From the NCBI RefSeq assembly GCF_016342705.1, contig NZ_JAEINV010000005.1, positions 1 to 64,000 on the forward strand: DNA of 64,000 nucleotides, read 5' to 3'. The position numbers and the translations under genes are program-made. Position 1 is the first letter of the stretch. Each line of letters starts with the position of its first letter. The notes beneath the pieces are model-generated. The model searched no databases. It was not told the DNA's origin and saw only the letters and a program-made list of their open reading frames with translations. This stretch comes from Lutibacter sp. Lineage in GTDB: Bacteria; Bacteroidota; Bacteroidia; Flavobacteriales; Flavobacteriaceae. This document shows, piece after piece, positions 16,207-54,872 of this stretch.

Positions 16207-16773
16207 TTAATTTTTAAACCAATTATCTTCCATACATTTTCTGAGTTGTGTTCTGGCTCTGTGAATTATTACCCAAAGATTTGACGAAGTAATTTCTAAC
16301 TCCTTACAAATATCATCTGTTTCAAGCTGTTCAATAGTTTTCATTCTAAATACCATTGCATATTTTTCTGGTAAGCCATTTATACATTTTTCCAATACAA
16401 CACTTAACTCTTCATTCTCAATGTTTTTTTCTATTTCATTATTCCAAGATGATGGAACTCGCTCTTCAATCCAATCACCTTCTCTTTCGCCATCAGCATA
16501 AAAATTCATTTTAACTTCAGCTTTTCCTTTTGTTGAATTTATTTTTCGATAATAATCAATAATTTTTCTTTTTAAAATAGCAACCAACCAAGTTCTTTCG
16601 CTTGCCAACCCTTGAAAGTTATCCATCGCTTTTAACCCCGCAAAAAAAGTATCTTGTACTAAATCTTTTGCTAAATCATGATTGTTTATTCTACCTATAG
16701 TAAAATTGTACAAATAATCGGCGTGAAGTTTCACCCATTTATCAGGGCTCAATTGGTGTTTTTCTTTTGACAT
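16207..16773 (-). CDS. ECF-type RNA polymerase sigma-70 factor
   Basis: AKDLVQDTFFAGLKAMDNF (region 2), ITSSNLWVIIHRARTQLRKCM (region 4). Confidence 0.92.
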   Translation of the reverse strand: MSKEKHQLSPDKWVKLHADYLYNFTIGRINNHDLAKDLVQDTFFAGLKAMDNFQGLASERTWLVAILKRKIIDYYRKINSTKGKAEVKMNFYADGEREGDWIEERVPSSWNNEIEKNIENEELSVVLEKCINGLPEKYAMVFRMKTIEQLETDDICKELEITSSNLWVIIHRARTQLRKCMEDNWFKN

Positions 16774-46508: not shown

Positions 46509-46637
46509 ATTATTTGCTACTTATCCTCAAAGCTAATTTACAAATAATAATTAAGAAGTATTTACTAAACCTCAGTAGAAATATTTTTACTATCCTTTTT
46601 TTAAAATTGCAAAATATTTGTAGTTAAAATCCATCAA

Positions 46638-46667
46638 TCTATTGATTCAATTCTTTAGTTGGTTGAA
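46638..46667 (+). promoter_or_regulatory. Putative LytTR operator A: TCTATTGAT-N12-TTGGTTGAA
   Basis: Direct repeats at 46638-46646 and 46659-46667, 21-bp period; 32 bp before TTTG of TACTTTG (46697-46703). Confidence 0.7.
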
Positions 46668-46696
46668 TGTTTTTTATTTATACACACTTGCAACGT

Positions 46697-46703
46697 TACT
46701 TTG
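46697..46703 (+). promoter_or_regulatory. Putative -7 element TACTTTG of the ferredoxin operon
   Basis: TTTG core 32 bp after repeat pair; 37 bp before ATG. Confidence 0.55.
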
Positions 46704-46740: not shown

Positions 46741-46956
46741 ATGTCCATTGAAAGTATAAACGGTTGCGTAGGATGTGAGGAGTGCATAAAAAGCTGTCCT
46801 ACAGACGTAATTAGGTTAAATTCCACCACAAAAAAAGCAGAGATTTTATATCCGGAAGATTGTCAAATATGTCATTTATGCCGTATGTATTGCCCGGTAG
46901 ACGCTATTACAATTTCTCCTGAAAAAAGTATTCCAGTAATTGTATCATGGGGTTAA
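46741..46956 (+). CDS. Small 2x[4Fe-4S] ferredoxin
   Basis: CVGCEECIKSCP and CQICHLCRMYCP (two CxxCxxCxxxCP). Confidence 0.92.
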   Translation: MSIESINGCVGCEECIKSCPTDVIRLNSTTKKAEILYPEDCQICHLCRMYCPVDAITISPEKSIPVIVSWG

Positions 46957-46958
46957 TT

Positions 46959-47600
46959 ATGAAAAAACAACGTAATATATTTAGACTATTAGTACTTGCC
47001 GTACTTTTCATAATTGTACCCATAATATTATACCTCTTAGGAGATTTTTCAAAACGTAATTTTTTAATGGAAACATTATCAATCATTACAATTCTGGGAT
47101 TTACTTTATTTCTTTCACAATTTTTTTTAACTAGAATAAATCAAAAATTGGTAAAAGATATTAGAATGGTTAATGTGCTGAAAATTCACAAAATAATTGG
47201 ATACACTTTTATAATAATACTACTCTTTCACCCAATATTTATTATTGTGCCAAAGTTTTTAGATAATACTGTAGCACCTGTTGATGCCTTTTTAAAACTA
47301 ATTACAACTTTCAGTAGTTTGGGTGTTATATTAGGTTTAATAGCCTATGTATGTATAATTGTAATATTAATTACCTCATTCTTTAGGTTTAAGTTACATT
47401 TAAAATATAAAACTTGGAGAAGTTTACATGGCTATTTTACAATGCTATTTGTAATTACAGCAACTTGGCATGTAATTAATATTGGACGCCACAGCAATAC
47501 TCCACTCTCAATTTATTATGTATTAATGGTAGCAAGCGGAATAATATATCTGCTAAAAACCTACCTATTTAAATCTCCAAAAAATGAAAGAATTAATTAA
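46959..47600 (+). CDS. Ferric-reductase-like membrane cytochrome b-type protein
   Basis: Multiple TM segments with spaced His (HKIIGYTFIIILLFH; WRSLHGYFTMLFVITATWHVINIGRH). Confidence 0.78.
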   Translation: MKKQRNIFRLLVLAVLFIIVPIILYLLGDFSKRNFLMETLSIITILGFTLFLSQFFLTRINQKLVKDIRMVNVLKIHKIIGYTFIIILLFHPIFIIVPKFLDNTVAPVDAFLKLITTFSSLGVILGLIAYVCIIVILITSFFRFKLHLKYKTWRSLHGYFTMLFVITATWHVINIGRHSNTPLSIYYVLMVASGIIYLLKTYLFKSPKNERIN

Positions 47601-49323
47601 CAATATCTCTCGAAGAAAATTTATAACATTAGCTGGCGGAGCAGCAAGTTTTTCGGCATTAGCAGCAATGGGATTACCAACTGATTGGGCAACAAATAAC
47701 CCAGAAATTGATGTAGACTCCTTAAATATTGATAAAATAAGCACCGATGTTTTAGTAATTGGAGGTGGAATGGCAGGTCTTTTTGCTTCAGTAAAAGCAC
47801 ATGATGCCGGAGCAAAAGTTTTAATGGTTTCAAAAGGAAGATTAGGAGCTTCTGGACAAACCCCTTTTGCTAAAGGAATATTTGCCTATGTTCCTAAAAA
47901 AGAAAAATTAAGCATTGATGAATTTGCACAAGCCGTATCAAGATCAGCTCTAGGAACCAATAATCCTGCTTACACAAAACAATTAGCAGAACATTCACTA
48001 GATAGAGTAAATGAATTAAAACAAAGGGGATTTTTTGATTCTTCATTGTACAACAAAAGCTTTAGTAAACCCATAAACGAACGCAATATTCCTCTACAAG
48101 AGCGTGTAGTAATAACACATTTAATAAAAGAAAATAATAAAATTGTGGGCGCTGCAGGATTTAGTTTAGATTCTGAAAAAATTATTTTTTATGAAGCAAA
48201 GAGCGTGATACTTTGTACAGGAGCAGGTGGTTTTAAACCAAACGGATTTCCTATTTGCGATTTAACGCATGATGGCACTATAATGGCTTACAACATTGGT
48301 GCAAAAGTAACAGGTAAAGAATGGAACGATGGACATCCTGCAAAATCTGAAAATGCAGCAGCCTGTTATGATGGTTGGGGAGATATGTTTGAGAAAAAGC
48401 CTGAAACCACAAGTGTTGAAATTCGTCACGATTTAGGCATAGATATGAATTATACTGCATATATAAATGGTGGCGCTGCACAAATGGGACCTCCAGGAAT
48501 GGGAAAACAGGAAAACACAGTGGTAGGAGGCCCATATAGACCAGAGGAATTTAACAATGCTGGCGGTCATCCGGGTGGAGAAAAAGAAGGTGAAAAAAGA
48601 CCTCCAAGAAAAGAAGGTAAAGGAGGTCCTCCAGGAATGGGAGGTAGTGTAGTTGGTGGTTCTTCTGCCGGAATGTCTATTCACAAAGCTGAGGGAATAG
48701 TTCCCATAAATGATCAATGCGAGTCTAACATTCCAGGTTTATTTGCTGCAGGTGATGCTTTAGGGTCTTATATGGCTGGCGCAATTTACACGCAAATTGG
48801 TTCTTCATTAGCAGGTTCTGCAGTTCAAGGAGCTGTTGCAGGTAAAGCTGCTGCTAAGTATAGTAAAACTGTAAAAACAGCAAGTATTTCTTCAAGTAAA
48901 ATAAAAGAAATTCAAGAAGAAATTTTAGCACCATTAAAACGTGAAGCTGGTTACAGCGCTGCTTGGGTTACGCAAACATTACAAGGAATTATGATTCCTA
49001 ACTTTATAATTTATATAAAAAAGGAAAACTTATTAAAAGGCGCTTTGGCTTATGTTGAAGAATTAAGAGATCATCATTTACCAATGTTAAGAGCAAAGAA
49101 TTTTCATGAATTGCGTTTGGTACATGAAACAGCAAATATGATTGTTACTGCTGAAATGAAATTGAAAGCATCTATTATGAGAACTGAAAGTAGATGTAGC
49201 CATTACCGTTTGGATTATCCCAAAGTAGATTATGAAAATTGGAATGTTTGGATAAATATTTTTAAAGGTGAAGATGGAACTATGCAGTTTGAAAAACAAC
49301 CTTTTAATACTTGGCCCGTATAA
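47584..49323 (+). CDS. Tat-exported FAD-binding fumarate reductase/succinate dehydrogenase-like flavoprotein with Gly/Pro-rich insertion
   Basis: Twin-arginine NISRRKFITLAGGAASFSALAAMG; VLVIGGGMAGLFASVKAHDAGAKVLMVSKG; insertion GPPGMGKQ...KGGPPGMGG; overlaps upstream gene. Confidence 0.87.
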   Translation: MKELINNISRRKFITLAGGAASFSALAAMGLPTDWATNNPEIDVDSLNIDKISTDVLVIGGGMAGLFASVKAHDAGAKVLMVSKGRLGASGQTPFAKGIFAYVPKKEKLSIDEFAQAVSRSALGTNNPAYTKQLAEHSLDRVNELKQRGFFDSSLYNKSFSKPINERNIPLQERVVITHLIKENNKIVGAAGFSLDSEKIIFYEAKSVILCTGAGGFKPNGFPICDLTHDGTIMAYNIGAKVTGKEWNDGHPAKSENAAACYDGWGDMFEKKPETTSVEIRHDLGIDMNYTAYINGGAAQMGPPGMGKQENTVVGGPYRPEEFNNAGGHPGGEKEGEKRPPRKEGKGGPPGMGGSVVGGSSAGMSIHKAEGIVPINDQCESNIPGLFAAGDALGSYMAGAIYTQIGSSLAGSAVQGAVAGKAAAKYSKTVKTASISSSKIKEIQEEILAPLKREAGYSAAWVTQTLQGIMIPNFIIYIKKENLLKGALAYVEELRDHHLPMLRAKNFHELRLVHETANMIVTAEMKLKASIMRTESRCSHYRLDYPKVDYENWNVWINIFKGEDGTMQFEKQPFNTWPV

Positions 49324-49367
49324 TAGTAGTATTTAAATAATTAATATTTTTGGTTTGAATTAAGTTG

Positions 49368-49400
49368 AAAAAATCGGTCAGTCATAGGCCGATTTTTTTT
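49368..49400 (+). terminator. Rho-independent terminator after flavoprotein operon
   Basis: AAAAAATCGG-TCAGTCATAGG-CCGATTTTTTTT. Confidence 0.82.
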
Positions 49401-49485
49401 GTCCGTTTTGTAAAACCATTTTCATCAATAATAAAGTATAAGTTTTTTAAAGTTTATAAAGTTATTAGTGCTAAAGTATCCGAAT

Positions 49486-49515
49486 TTGGTTGATAAAATA
49501 CCTGAGTACATTGAT
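49486..49515 (+). promoter_or_regulatory. Putative LytTR operator B: TTGGTTGAT-N12-TACATTGAT
   Basis: Direct repeats at 49486-49494 and 49507-49515; 32 bp before TTTG (49548-49551). Confidence 0.75.
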
Positions 49516-49593
49516 TTTAGTTTCTAAAAATACACTCATTTCATTTCTTTGTTTCAGCAAATGATTAAATAACAACCTTTTAAAAATAAAATA

Positions 49594-50013
49594 ATGAAAT
49601 TAAAAATGAACAAAATTTGGAAAATGTTAGTTGTAGTATTAGTAATTACAACAACAGCTTGTGGACAACAAAGAGGTGGACAAGGTGACGGACAGCAAAG
49701 AGGTGGACAAGGAGGACCTCCTGCGTTACCAACAGCAAAAGAAATTAAAACTATGGTTAGTGATTTATCAAAAGAGATTCTTTTAAGTGATGAACAAGAA
49801 GCACAAGTTTTAAAATTATATACTGCACATTTTGAAGAAGTGAAAGAAAAAACAAGTGCTGGAAGACCAGATAGAAATGAAATGGAATCTTTAAAAACTT
49901 CATTTGAAAATAAAGTTAAATCCATTTTAACAAAAGATCAACAAATAAAATACGCTTCTTTTTTAAAGAAAAATCTTATGAAAAAAATAAAAAGTGATTT
50001 GAATAAGCATTAA
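49594..50013 (+). CDS. Spy/LTxxQ-like small lipoprotein with Gly/Gln-rich N-terminus
   Basis: MLVVVLVITTTACGQQRGGQGDGQQRGGQGGPPALP lipobox; LSDEQEAQVLKLY and LTKDQQIKYASFL. Confidence 0.75.
   Translation: MKLKMNKIWKMLVVVLVITTTACGQQRGGQGDGQQRGGQGGPPALPTAKEIKTMVSDLSKEILLSDEQEAQVLKLYTAHFEEVKEKTSAGRPDRNEMESLKTSFENKVKSILTKDQQIKYASFLKKNLMKKIKSDLNKH
49663..49716 (+). repeat. Two tandem 27-bp units encoding GQQRGGQGD/GQQRGGQGG
   Basis: GGACAACAAAGAGGTGGACAAGGTGAC / GGACAGCAAAGAGGTGGACAAGGAGGA. Confidence 0.85.
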
Positions 50014-50053
50014 AATATCAGTTTGAGTTAATAATTAAGTTTGGTTAAATTTT

Positions 50054-50092
50054 CCCCACATTTTAATTTCTTTAAAATGTGGGGATTTTTTT
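50054..50092 (+). terminator. Rho-independent terminator after Spy-like gene
   Basis: CCCCACATTTTAA-TTTCT-TTAAAATGTGGGG-ATTTTTTT. Confidence 0.9.
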
Positions 50093-50094
50093 AT

Positions 50095-50124
50095 TTGGTT
50101 GATAAAAAAAGCCAGTTCGTTGAT
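50095..50124 (+). promoter_or_regulatory. Putative LytTR operator C: TTGGTTGAT-N12-TTCGTTGAT
   Basis: Direct repeats at 50095-50103 and 50116-50124; 32 bp before TTTG of TACTTTG (50154-50160). Confidence 0.78.
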
Positions 50125-50193
50125 TTCTTTTCTTAAAACCTTGCATATCCATTTACTTTGTTCTCAAATAAACAAAACCACAAATACTAAATT

Positions 50194-50799
50194 ATGGAAT
50201 TTTTAGATATCCCAATTTTTGATGAAGATTTTTACAAAATGCTTTTTAGATTTTGTTTAAACATATTTTTTCTAACTATCATAATTAGGTTTTTATATTA
50301 TAAAAATTCAAAACGAAAAGACTATTTATTTACTTATTATATGATTAGTCTTATAGTATTTTTCTTATGCTTTACCCTAAAAAAATACAATTTAGACATT
50401 GGTATGGCGCTTGGACTTTTTGCAATTTTTGGAATTATTAGGTACAGAACTGATGCTATTCCCATAAAAGAAATGACCTATTTATTTATAGTTATTGGCG
50501 TTTCTGTAATTAATTCATTAGCTAACAAAAAAATGAGCTATTCAGAAATTTTAATCGCCAATACACTTATAATTTTTGTACTAACTATTCTAGAAAAATT
50601 CTGGCATTTAAAACATGAAGTCTCTAAAAAAATTACCTACGGAAATATTGAAAATGTAAAACCTGAAAATTATAGTTTGTTAAAACTAGATTTAGAGAAA
50701 AAAACTGGGTTAACTATTAATAGAGTTACAATTGGTGATTTAGATTTATTAAAAAATACTTCAAAGGTTACAATTTACTATTACAACGGAAAACCATAA
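50194..50799 (+). CDS. DUF4956 membrane protein
   Basis: MALGLFAIFGIIRYRTDAIPIKEMTYLFIVIGVSVIN. Confidence 0.85.
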   Translation: MEFLDIPIFDEDFYKMLFRFCLNIFFLTIIIRFLYYKNSKRKDYLFTYYMISLIVFFLCFTLKKYNLDIGMALGLFAIFGIIRYRTDAIPIKEMTYLFIVIGVSVINSLANKKMSYSEILIANTLIIFVLTILEKFWHLKHEVSKKITYGNIENVKPENYSLLKLDLEKKTGLTINRVTIGDLDLLKNTSKVTIYYYNGKP

Positions 50800-50813
50800 T
50801 TAAAAATCACCCC

Positions 50814-51515
50814 ATGAAAAAAATAAAACTTCAAGCATATCTAATTATTTTGTCTATAACAATTTCAAGTATTGGTTATACTCAAAACAACAATGATTTT
50901 GGGTCTTGGTCTACTTTAGCATTGGAATATAAATTCAATAAAAAATTAAGTTTCGGATTAGAAGAACAACTTAGATTAAAAGAAAACATATCGCAAATAG
51001 ATGAATATTTTACAGAAATAAGCACTGAGTACGATTTAACAAAAAACTTCTCAATTGGCGCTGCTGCAAGATTCATTAAAGAAAATGATAATGAAGGAAA
51101 AATTCAAGGATATGAAAATCATTTCAGATTTCAATTAGATGCAGCTTATAAACATAAAATTGATCAGTTTTCACTTAAATACAGACTTCGTTATCAAAAT
51201 AAAAATGAATTAGGAATTAGCACATCTGAAGGCGACTATGCTAACCAACATATTCGATTAAAAACTTCAATAGGCTATAATATTAAAAATTGGAAATTAG
51301 ATCCTGAATTTTCTGCAGAACTATTTAATCACTTCGAAAAAAATGAAGAAAATGGGTTTGATAAATACAGATTATCTATAGGAACTGATTACGATTTGAA
51401 AAAATATGGAAAAATAAATTTGTACTATCAATTTGAAAAAGAACTTAATTCAACAAATCCAAATTCCTTAAATGTAATAGGACTTAAATATAAATACACT
51501 TTTAAAAACAATTAA
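50814..51515 (+). CDS. DUF2490 beta-barrel-like outer membrane protein
   Basis: Signal peptide; FGSWSTLALEYKFNKKLSFGLEEQLRLKEN; alternating beta-strand pattern. Confidence 0.82.
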   Translation: MKKIKLQAYLIILSITISSIGYTQNNNDFGSWSTLALEYKFNKKLSFGLEEQLRLKENISQIDEYFTEISTEYDLTKNFSIGAAARFIKENDNEGKIQGYENHFRFQLDAAYKHKIDQFSLKYRLRYQNKNELGISTSEGDYANQHIRLKTSIGYNIKNWKLDPEFSAELFNHFEKNEENGFDKYRLSIGTDYDLKKYGKINLYYQFEKELNSTNPNSLNVIGLKYKYTFKNN

Positions 51516-51517
51516 AC

Positions 51518-52957
51518 ATGAAAAATTCAACTATTAAAATTGCATTACTTTTTATTGCAATTTCTATCGCATCTTATGTGCATATTAGCTGTTCTGATGA
51601 TGAAACAATTTCTGATGCAGATGCAACTGAAACAACTGAGACAACTGACGCAGTTGTAGACGATTTAGACTTTACACCAACAGATTGGACAACCGAAACT
51701 CACAGCAAAGATGCAGACCCAAATTACACAGAAGTATTTGATAATACTGTTGTAAAAAGATTAGACTTTGTAGTATCAAACACTAACTGGAAAGCCATGT
51801 TAACTGATATGACAAGCCTTTACGGAACCTTTGGGTCATCAAATTCTGGCCCTGGTGGTGGTGGCACAAGTTTTTCTGATGAAGACCCAATTTTTGTTCC
51901 AGCTTCTGTATTTTATAACGGAAAAGAATGGTATAAAGTAGGTATTCGTTTTAAAGGAAATTCTAGTTTATCATCAGCCTGGGAATCAGGAATTTTAAAA
52001 CTTTCTTTTAAATTAGATTTTGATGAATATGAAGATGATTATCCACAAATTAAAAATCAACGTTTTTACGGTTTCAAAAAATTTAGTTTAAAAAATAATT
52101 ATGATGACGATGCTTTATTAAGAGAAAAAGTTGCAGCAGAAATTTTTAAAAATGCTGGTTTAGCTGTTTCAAACACTTCGTTTTATACCTTATATGTTGA
52201 CTACGGTGATGGACCACAATATTTTGGACTATATACATTGGTTGAAGAAATTGATGATACAGTTATTGACACTCAATTTTCAAGCGGTGATGGAAATTTA
52301 TACAAACCTGAAGATGATGGTGCAAATTTTGCAAACGGATCTTTTAATGAAGATGGATTTGAAAAGAAAACAAACGAAGATGAAGCTGATTGGAGCGATG
52401 TTAAAGCAGTATTTAGTGCCTTACACGCTAGCACTAGAACAACAGATCCTGCAGCTTGGAGAGCAGGTTTAGATGCTGTTTTTGACACAGATGTATTTCT
52501 TAATTATTTAGCTGTAAATACAGTAATTCAAAATTGGGATACTTATGGTAGAATGGAACACAACTATTATTTATATAACAATCCTTCTACTAATAAACTA
52601 ACTTGGATTCCTTGGGATAATAATGAAGCTTTACAATCAGGAAAACAACAAGGTGCTTTAAACTTAAATTTCTCAAATCTTTCTGGTGATTGGCCATTAA
52701 TATCCTATTTATATGCAGACAGCGTTTACAAAGCAAAATATGACGCCTATGTAAAAGCAACTATAGATGGCCCATTTGAAACAACATACATTCAAGGTGT
52801 TTATGATACTTATGCAGATTTAATAGAACCATACGCAACAACAGAAGTTAAAGGATACTCCTTTTTAAGTAGCAGCAGTTCATTTTATTCTGGAATTAGC
52901 ACCATAAAATCTCATGCAAGCAGCAGAGCAAGTGCAGTAACAACTTATTTAAAATAA
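51518..52957 (+). CDS. CotH kinase-like surface lipoprotein
   Basis: Lipobox HISCSDDE; VVKRLDFVVSNTNWKAML; LREKVAAEIFKNAGLAVSNTSFYTLYVDYG; NWDTYGRMEHNYYLYNNPSTNKLTWIPWDNNEAL. Confidence 0.88.
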   Translation: MKNSTIKIALLFIAISIASYVHISCSDDETISDADATETTETTDAVVDDLDFTPTDWTTETHSKDADPNYTEVFDNTVVKRLDFVVSNTNWKAMLTDMTSLYGTFGSSNSGPGGGGTSFSDEDPIFVPASVFYNGKEWYKVGIRFKGNSSLSSAWESGILKLSFKLDFDEYEDDYPQIKNQRFYGFKKFSLKNNYDDDALLREKVAAEIFKNAGLAVSNTSFYTLYVDYGDGPQYFGLYTLVEEIDDTVIDTQFSSGDGNLYKPEDDGANFANGSFNEDGFEKKTNEDEADWSDVKAVFSALHASTRTTDPAAWRAGLDAVFDTDVFLNYLAVNTVIQNWDTYGRMEHNYYLYNNPSTNKLTWIPWDNNEALQSGKQQGALNLNFSNLSGDWPLISYLYADSVYKAKYDAYVKATIDGPFETTYIQGVYDTYADLIEPYATTEVKGYSFLSSSSSFYSGISTIKSHASSRASAVTTYLK

Positions 52958-52969
52958 ATTGATTTTAAT

Positions 52970-53017
52970 ACCTTTGTTTATACATTAAATCATAAATTGT
53001 ATAAACAAAGGTGTTTT
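52970..53017 (+). terminator. Long-stem hairpin/terminator between cotH-like and kinase genes
   Basis: ACCTTTGTTTATACA (52970-52984) and TGTATAAACAAAGGT (52998-53012), perfect 15-bp arms, followed by GTTTTTAA. Confidence 0.65.
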
Positions 53018-53049
53018 TAAAATAGAATAAAGATAGAAACCTTTAAACG

Positions 53050-54162
53050 ATGAGCTTAATTAAAAAAAAATACAAATTCAATTATTTTGAGCCTTTAATA
53101 ATTATTGCCTTTTGGGCATTATTATTTGCATCTCCTCTCTTATTTGGACGATTTGAAGACCAAATTGAGTGGCAAAAAGTACAAACTGCTTGGTTAAACT
53201 TTTTACCTTTATTAGTGTTGTTTTTCATCAATCGTTTTGCTTTATTACCTAGGCTTTTTTTTAAAGGAAAAAGAGTTGGTTATTTTTTGAGTACCATTTC
53301 AATAATAGTCCTTTTTGCTGTTAATATTCATTTTTTTAATGACATTCCAACACAAAAAAGACCACGACCAGAAGGAATTGAAAATTCAGGATTATTAACA
53401 GAGCCTCCAAGAGGTTTTGATAGAATGCCACCTCCAAATATCAGACCTTCAGAATCTGCACCTCAGCCAATTCCTCCATCAATAAACTTTTTAATTTTAG
53501 CCGTTTTATTGGTTGGTTTTGATACTGGATTACAAATTTCTATGCGTTGGTCTAGTTTAGAAAAAGAAAAATTTAAACTTGAAAAAGAAAGTGTTGAAAA
53601 CCAATTGGCTATTTTAAAAAACCAAGTAAGTCCGCACTTTTTTATGAATACTTTAAACAATATTCACGCATTAGTAGATATTGATTCTGAACAAGCAAAA
53701 ACCTCTATTATTAAACTCTCTAACCTAATGCGTCATTTATTATATGATTCTGAAGGTACAAAAACACCCATAAAAAAAGAAATATCCTTTATTGAAAGTT
53801 ATATTGAATTAATGAAGCTACGCTTTTCTGAAAAAGTAAAAATAACAGTAGATATTCCTACCGTAATTCCAGAAAAATTAATTCCACCACTACTTTTCAC
53901 CTCATTAATTGAAAATGCTTTTAAACATGGAATTAGTTATAATTCAACTTCTTTTATTGAAGTAAAAATGAGTTTTACAGAAGAAAATTTAATTTTTATA
54001 ATTAAAAATAGCAATCCTAATTTCAATAAAACAAATGAAACAAAAGGAATTGGAATTGAAAACACTAAAAAGAGATTAGACCTTATTTACAGCGAAAATT
54101 ACACTTTAAATGTTGATGAAAATAAGGAATTTTACATGATAAATTTAAACGTACCACTATGA
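53050..54162 (+). CDS. LytS/YesM-type sensor histidine kinase with 4 TM helices and Pro-rich loop
   Basis: NQVSPHFFMNTLNNIHALVDID; LLFTSLIENAFKHGI; GIGIENTKKRLDLIY; loop RPRPEGIENSGLLTEPPRGFDRMPPPNIRPSESAPQPIPP. Confidence 0.94.
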   Translation: MSLIKKKYKFNYFEPLIIIAFWALLFASPLLFGRFEDQIEWQKVQTAWLNFLPLLVLFFINRFALLPRLFFKGKRVGYFLSTISIIVLFAVNIHFFNDIPTQKRPRPEGIENSGLLTEPPRGFDRMPPPNIRPSESAPQPIPPSINFLILAVLLVGFDTGLQISMRWSSLEKEKFKLEKESVENQLAILKNQVSPHFFMNTLNNIHALVDIDSEQAKTSIIKLSNLMRHLLYDSEGTKTPIKKEISFIESYIELMKLRFSEKVKITVDIPTVIPEKLIPPLLFTSLIENAFKHGISYNSTSFIEVKMSFTEENLIFIIKNSNPNFNKTNETKGIGIENTKKRLDLIYSENYTLNVDENKEFYMINLNVPL

Positions 54163-54872
54163 TTACATGCATAACAATTGATGATGAACCATTAGCTTTA
54201 AAACAAGTGGTTAGTTATATAAATAAAACACCCTTTTTAGAATTAAAAGGCAATTTTGAAAGTCCAATTGAAGCATTTTCTTTTATTCAGGAAAACACTA
54301 TTGATTTGATTTTTATTGATATTAACATGCCTGATTTAAACGGATTAGATTTTGTAAAATCATTAAAAAATCCGCCAAAAATTATTTTCACTACGGCTTA
54401 TAGTGAATATGCTTTAGAAGGTTTTAAAGTAGATGCTTTAGATTATTTGTTAAAACCTATTGATTATGCTTCGTTTTTAAAAGCAGCCAACAAAGTCAAA
54501 GAATGGTTCGATTTAAAACAAAATGCTGCTGAAGAAATAAAAAGTAATGACGATTATTTATTCATAAAGTCTGAATATAAAATTGTACGTGTAAAATTAG
54601 ATGACATCACCTACATTGAAGGAATGCGCGAATATGTTCGAATTCATTTAACAGTTGAAAAACCAATTATGACTTTGCTAAGTATGAAGCTTTTAGAGCA
54701 ACAATTACCTTCAAGCAAGTTTATGCGTGTACACAGATCTTACATTGTTAATTTAACAAAAATCTCCACAATTGAAAGAAACAGAATTGTATTTGATAAA
54801 ACGTATATTCCTATAAGTGAACAATATAAAGATGTTTTTCACCAATTTATTGAAAAGAATTTTTTACAGTAA
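54159..54872 (+). CDS. LytTR-family response regulator
   Basis: CITIDDEPLALKQVVSYI receiver; LTKISTIERNRIVFDKTYIPISEQYKDVF LytTR domain; overlaps kinase gene by 4 bp. Confidence 0.95.
   Translation: MITCITIDDEPLALKQVVSYINKTPFLELKGNFESPIEAFSFIQENTIDLIFIDINMPDLNGLDFVKSLKNPPKIIFTTAYSEYALEGFKVDALDYLLKPIDYASFLKAANKVKEWFDLKQNAAEEIKSNDDYLFIKSEYKIVRVKLDDITYIEGMREYVRIHLTVEKPIMTLLSMKLLEQQLPSSKFMRVHRSYIVNLTKISTIERNRIVFDKTYIPISEQYKDVFHQFIEKNFLQ

Follow-up and report, generated by a model that had tools for sequence, protein, structure and literature searches.

A candidate LytTR-controlled regulon of surface proteins and an exported redox enzyme in Lutibacter and other bacteria

The stretch of Lutibacter sp. 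DNA that we analysed (64,000 nucleotides, hereafter the window) contains nine genes on one strand that encode a ferredoxin, a membrane cytochrome, a flavoprotein, a small secreted protein, a DUF4956 protein, a DUF2490 protein, a CotH-type kinase, a LytS-like histidine kinase, and a LytTR response regulator (Table 1). All nine are where a sequence-only reading of the window had placed them, and their families were confirmed with Pfam, except that the Spy-like assignment of the small secreted protein is tentative. The genes form four units, which are split by terminator-like sites and by an 18-bp inverted repeat. Because terminators separate the units, the genes, described as linked in that reading, are better regarded as co-regulated units than as one operon. 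A role in anti-phage defence was also considered and dropped, as PADLOC gave no hits.

Table 1. Genes and control elements of the locus, with their positions in the window
Feature	Position	Strand	Evidence or remarks
Operator and promoter 1	46617..46703	+	Half-sites at 46642 and 46663; -7 box TTACTTTG at 46696; precedes ferredoxin gene
2[4Fe-4S] ferredoxin	46741..46956	+	Fer4 E=3e-10; two CX2CX2CX3CP motifs; no signal peptide seen; 71 aa
Ferric_reduct-type membrane cytochrome	46947..47600	+	PF01794 E=3e-12; two HX13H pairs
Tat-type flavoprotein, complex II / APS-reductase alpha-like, Gly/Pro-rich insert	47584..49323	+	FAD_binding_2 E=2e-21; Succ_DH_flav_C E=7e-11; structural matches
Terminator-like site 3' of redox unit	49367..49399	+	
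Operator and promoter 2	49486..49551	+	Half-sites at 49490 and 49511; -7 box at 49544; precedes Spy-like gene
Small secreted helical protein, tentatively Spy/CnrX-like	49594..50013	+	Gly/Gln/Pro-rich N-terminus; LSxxQ/LTxxQ motifs
Terminator-like site 3' of Spy-like gene	50053..50085	+	
Operator and promoter 3	50095..50160	+	Half-sites at 50099 and 50120; -7 box at 50153; precedes DUF4956 gene
DUF4956 membrane protein	50194..50799	+	PF16316 E=3e-51
DUF2490 protein, putative outer-membrane beta-barrel	50814..51515	+	PF10677 E=2e-27
CotH-type kinase, predicted lipoprotein, C-S-D-D-E start	51518..52957	+	PF08757 E=4e-71; Bacillus CotH structure 5jd9 E=1e-14
18-bp inverted repeat, probable terminator between CotH and histidine kinase	52967..53015	+	
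LytS-like histidine kinase, Pro-rich loop between predicted TM3 and TM4	53050..54162	+	His_kinase E=2e-23
LytTR response regulator	54159..54872	+	LytTR E=2e-21; Response_reg E=3e-19

Three of the four units are preceded by a common element, TTGAT-N16-TTGAW, the half-sites of which are 21 bp apart. At all three promoters the distance from the first half-site to the start of the -7 box (TWnCTTTG, which we take to be of the Bacteroidota type) is exactly 54 bp. The ferredoxin operator (46617-46668) possibly contains a third half-site 21 bp upstream, which would make three half-sites at 21-bp steps. No such operator was found in the window for the kinase-regulator unit. The single shared operator proposed in the sequence-only reading thus holds for the ferredoxin, Spy-like, and DUF4956 units, but not for the unit that encodes the two-component pair. 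The exact full pattern occurs five times in the 3.63-Mb genome (genome-wide scans were pattern-based, not matrix-based), three times at the locus and twice inside ORFs. Published LytTR sites consist of two direct or inverse repeats of 9–11 nt with spacers of 11–13 nt (PMC4847170), and the 21-bp period found at all our sites fits this rule. Judged from its sequence, the operator has LytTR-type geometry, and the LytTR regulator of the locus, with which it co-occurs, may bind it.

The kinase and the regulator are encoded by adjacent genes, with a His_kinase domain in the first and Response_reg and LytTR domains in the second, as in LytS/LytTR two-component systems. They resemble such systems, e.g., YpdAB (PMC4847170), in these domains and in the tandem-repeat geometry of the sites, but differ from them in the Pro-rich sensor loop (9–15 Pro in 65 residues in the orthologues with agreeing start codons) and in a regulon made of several surface and redox units.

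The distribution of these genes was determined in 38 Lutibacter genomes. An orthologue of the kinase (at least 62% identity) was present in 11 of them, and CotH (at least 74% identity) in the same 11; a twelfth CotH match, in G184, was a 60% fragment. The flavoprotein was found in 9 of the 11 kinase-carrying genomes and in none of the other 27. According to the gene maps, DUF4956-DUF2490 was present in 9 and VTC in 7 of the 11, and the Spy-like gene in all 11 if a relocated copy in G152 is included, this last count covering the kinase-carrying genomes only. Some relatives had extra members, i.e., Lcl_C/DUF1566 lipoproteins and Cthe_2159-type lipoproteins. VTC, the one cassette enzyme with a known product in homologues, was found nowhere in the window genome. 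In this genome and in its nearest relative (G157), DUF4956 has no adjoining VTC, and the operator that precedes VTC in relatives directly precedes DUF4956 here. We also observed a transposase-like gene pair near the cluster in G175 (L089, after position 16600), which fits with gain and loss of the cluster as an island. The sequence-only reading had named a neighbourhood not conserved in relatives as one result that would refute it; both the gene set and the operator do recur in relatives.

Relatives of the flavoprotein numbered 144, of which the best 80 (about 60–80% identical) were examined; their loci span Bacteroidota, Desulfobacterota, Proteobacteria, Campylobacterota, spirochaetes, and others. 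A first matrix, built from 12 exact Lutibacter sites, identified 40 distinct operators in the Lutibacter loci, all of them on the strand of the system and, by position, before system genes. The matrix derived from these 40 sites was then applied to untrained loci of Maribacter, Aureibaculum, Labilibaculum, Ancylomarina, and others. In 14 kinase-containing loci of other genera it gave 41 matches, all 41 on the system's strand. Thirty-four of them were at most 260 bp upstream of a system gene, versus 4.7% expected by area (binomial ~1e-38, a value to be taken as descriptive because neither the sites of one locus nor the loci of one genus are independent of each other). Several of the 7 remaining matches precede members that had been missed by our gene labels, such as the kinase in L145, an EF-hand protein in L138, and a CotH of divergent sequence in L148. 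The 63 loci without kinase (1.19 Mb) gave 4 matches, each of which lies upstream of a system gene in one of two Bacteroidota loci, and mononucleotide shuffles gave none. In a genus-wide pattern search, no perfect core match was found, among the genomes listed, where the kinase was absent. One perfect off-cluster operator, in G152, lies directly before the relocated Spy-like gene. Two other perfect matches outside the cluster, one in G157 and one in G159, were not linked to any system gene; that of G159 falls inside a coding sequence.

These data also bear on whether the neighbourhood could be due to chance, i.e., to unrelated operons that happen to adjoin, with an operator that is no more than AT-rich repetition. 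AT-rich DNA often contains degenerate half-sites, and with one mismatch allowed the window has 30 matches against 20 expected. This explanation is nevertheless scarcely credible in view of the exact architecture of the sites, the co-inheritance of the genes, their shuffled yet linked order, and the specificity of the operator across genera; a chance operator was rejected on account of the architecture, this specificity, and the off-cluster site of G152.

Because the 80 loci had been chosen via flavoprotein homology, a kinase-based search was added as an independent bait. A close orthologue of the kinase was found in 3 of 301 Flavobacteriaceae genomes, that of the window included. In G296, operators accompany the redox unit together with genes for the kinase, the regulator, CotH, and Lcl_C; in G120, they accompany genes for the kinase, the regulator, CotH, Lcl_C, and EF-hand proteins. 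The gene order of the set is shuffled among related bacteria. The apparent single switch that had been proposed for the redox module, the small secreted protein, and the CotH cassette is retained in relatives, and the sequence comparisons give good support to a LytTR regulon specific to these envelope and redox genes.

The flavoprotein is absent from the whole genomes of G152, G166, and G120, which keep the kinase, the regulator, and CotH. Because these genomes lack the redox module, the latter is a frequent but not an obligatory member: its place under the shared operator, as first proposed, stands, but it is not indispensable to the system. Conversely, many Proteobacteria have the flavoprotein without CotH or the LytS/LytTR pair.

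The flavoprotein has the complex II flavoprotein fold. Searches with its predicted structure (AlphaFold/Foldseek) yielded PAPS/APS reductase alpha subunits, SdhA, and FrdA (TM ~0.63), with APS/PAPS reductase alpha (1jnr, 8a8o) among the best matches. A flavocytochrome of the Fcc3 type was rejected, since the structural matches favour PAPS/APS reductase and FrdA/SdhA. An SRRKF Tat motif was found in 9 of 9 Lutibacter orthologues. The segment equivalent to NRLGSNSL of FrdA, which contains the dicarboxylate-binding arginine, reads YTQIGSSL, and the arginine is missing. Residues I401, Y402, T403, Q404, G406, and S408 were invariant in 41 homologues. Because the fumarate-binding arginine is missing, the protein was not identified as a fumarate reductase; the sequence of this segment makes a reaction with fumarate or succinate unlikely and does not allow the substrate to be predicted. 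The stretch corresponding to the capping domain is short and rich in Gly and Pro, and the confidence of its structure prediction is low.

A Tat-exported enzyme of the complex II type is known, the methylmenaquinol:fumarate reductase (MFR/SdhABE) of Wolinella (PMC2680327). The module of the locus shares with it a complex II-family flavoprotein, a Tat signal, and a gene for an Fe-S partner. Unlike in MFR, this partner is a 71-aa 2[4Fe-4S] ferredoxin rather than an SdhB-type subunit, the anchor is of the Ferric_reduct type rather than SdhE, and the fumarate-binding arginine is not conserved. Similarity with APS/PAPS reductase alpha lies in the structural match and in the 2[4Fe-4S] ferredoxin-like partner gene, but the cap is replaced by a short Gly/Pro-rich insert, the protein carries a Tat export motif, and there is no sulfate-reduction context. 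In MsrPQ, a Ferric_reduct-type heme protein serves an exported Tat molybdopterin enzyme. The locus likewise combines a Ferric_reduct-type heme protein with an exported Tat enzyme, the difference being that the partner is a flavoprotein. The two HX13H pairs of the membrane protein presumably bind two hemes b, and the arrangement that appears likeliest would keep this diheme protein within the membrane and place the flavoprotein and ferredoxin on the outer side.

These properties raise the possibility that the system is a regulon for a respiratory or detoxifying reductase, in which the flavoprotein reduces or oxidises an external small molecule and CotH and the Spy-like protein are accessories to life on that compound. 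Flavoprotein, ferredoxin, and cytochrome are indeed the most widespread core, conserved at about 60–80% identity across phyla, and the precedent of MFR and the top structural matches (PAPS/APS reductases and FrdA/SdhA) point the same way. However, the segment that replaces the arginine region is mostly invariant and gives no substrate, and the kinase, regulator, and CotH persist where the flavoprotein is missing. We therefore consider this interpretation rather unlikely.

The small secreted protein owes its Spy-like label to LSxxQ/LTxxQ motifs and to a model with four helices, along with weak Pfam matches for some family members. For LTXXQ, 10 of 19 members matched weakly (best 6.5e-4, below the cut-off), the window protein not being among them; for Metal_resist, 14 of 19 did so. 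A fold search of the PDB with the four-helix model gave no match below E=0.7. About half of the orthologues lack a cysteine at the cleavage site, so that the term lipoprotein does not apply to the family in general. Of the Spy-like lipoprotein first described, the small, secreted, helical protein remains; the Spy similarity is weak, the cysteine partial, and the fold match missing. Like Spy, CpxP, and CnrX, it is small, secreted, and all-helical, with LSxxQ/LTxxQ motifs, but its N-terminus is disordered, rich in Gly, Gln, and Pro, with a conserved Gly/Gln-Pro-Pro motif, and no fold match was obtained. A Spy/CnrX-like identity is, from its sequence, tentative.

Small secreted proteins with Gly/Pro motifs adjoin the flavoprotein in other phyla too. 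Outside Bacteroidota we observed a cluster of them (L144, L152, L156, L166-L168, L175, L200, and L201) with a GPPPEAIxACxGKxxGDxVxFxxRxGE-like motif; the member tested had no Pfam family, and these proteins are possible counterparts of the Spy-like protein. The Gly/Pro likeness between such secreted proteins and the kinase loop is a lead only, because it was noticed post hoc and without a background rate. YHYH-type proteins were seen at the flavoprotein loci of Winogradskyella (L131:19921-21120, Pfam-confirmed, with EF-hands) and Thalassovita (L193:6868-7875, by similarity). In Maribacter, a membrane protein of about 172 aa, PepSY-like by eye, recurs with CotH on one side and the redox genes on the other (L135:7653, L137:7665, L139:8203, and L140:7652), and it is found again near the relocated Spy-like gene of Lutibacter G152 (L209:1663-2178).

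A regulon against metal or redox stress of the envelope was also envisaged, in which Spy/CnrX-like, YHYH, and EF-hand proteins would bind metal or protect proteins, and the flavoprotein would shift a metal, or surface proteins that have become oxidised, to another redox state. The weak Metal_resist and LTXXQ matches go in this direction, as do a clear Metal_resist protein that adjoins the flavoprotein in L150 and the EF-hand and YHYH proteins of other loci. Yet no metal-efflux pump or metalloregulator was recognised, by eye, among the recurrent neighbour clusters, and the Spy-like family stays below the Pfam cut-offs and without a PDB fold match. This makes a metal-stress regulon improbable.

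The CotH of the locus is a predicted protein kinase, its QNxD and IPWD motifs aligning with 5jd9. Its C-S-D-D-E start resembles what we take to be a surface-export signal. Among the best 80 of the 144 flavoprotein loci, CotH was found in 24 and Lcl_C in 22, across phyla and in shuffled order. For CotH this compares with 1.3 loci expected if 3 CotH genes per 4 Mb are assumed (binomial 8e-24), or gives a binomial of 6e-13 at an assumed 5% per locus; these background rates are assumptions, the only observed anchor being the two CotH copies of the window genome. The second of these copies (G000:C3:269307-270281, L074) is more divergent and was not tied to the operator pattern. In a family-wide survey of DUF4956, we found DUF4956-DUF2490, sometimes with CotH, without a redox unit in other Flavobacteriaceae, indicating that the cassette also exists alone. 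CotH, a polyphosphate polymerase (VTC), and DUF4956 form an accessory cassette of Gram-positive pel loci (PMC7112168). The present locus similarly encodes CotH and DUF4956 together, with VTC in 7 of the 11 Lutibacter genomes that have the cluster. In contrast with the pel cassette, no adjoining pel genes were recognised, VTC has been lost here, DUF2490 has been added, and the cassette stands under a LytTR-type operator together with a redox unit.

The anatomy, the operator, the co-inheritance, and the conservation of the regulon are read from sequence; for regulator binding and activation, the electron route, the substrate, the activity of CotH, and the physiological role, we infer the following scheme. 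The LytS-like kinase would read an extracytoplasmic signal, for which its conserved proline-rich loop is the probable sensor. Once phosphorylated, the LytTR regulator would bind the pair of half-sites, with their 21-bp period, that lies directly ahead of the -33/-7 promoter, and would switch on every effector unit. The Tat-exported flavoprotein probably pairs with the 2[4Fe-4S] ferredoxin, which would either be co-carried via Tat or act as a cytoplasmic donor, and may use the diheme Ferric_reduct-type protein for electron exchange with the membrane, its substrate being some extracytoplasmic compound. The small helical Gly/Pro-rich protein may protect or scaffold exported proteins, and the DUF4956-DUF2490-CotH cassette, which most relatives extend by VTC, may modify or build surface (lipo)proteins or polymers. 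The net role would be to build and condition the cell surface on an outside cue. We lean slightly toward this proposal as a whole, that of a self-contained, two-component-controlled envelope and surface regulon that conditions the cell surface; the role of the system could be surface conditioning, use of an external acceptor, or metal/redox stress.

A broader scheme would see here a widespread, undescribed extracytoplasmic redox system, composed of flavoprotein, ferredoxin, and cytochrome with small Gly/Pro-motif proteins (Spy-like, EF-hand, 'GPPPEAIxAC'). The Pro-rich loop of the kinase would mimic these proteins to sense the same ligand or modification, e.g., a polyphenol, which proline-rich proteins bind, and the CotH/VTC/Lcl_C cassette would have been wired in by the LytTR operator in Bacteroidota. 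We regard this extension as doubtful.

We found no description of the combined system in the open-access literature searched. Its parts are already known, i.e., the CotH-VTC-DUF4956 cassette, exported complex II-like enzymes, and LytTR switches. The multi-part system appears to be real and, as a union under one operator, undescribed. CotH, VTC/DUF4956, DUF2490, Lcl_C, and Cthe_2159 proteins occur widely, and little is known of what they do in such bacteria. The conserved operator ties these surface proteins to an exported redox enzyme and to one sensor, so that an inducer of one promoter would make the whole set testable. It has already predicted a relocated member, the Spy-like gene of G152. 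The flavoprotein family is itself an uncharacterised exported redox enzyme, present in several phyla.
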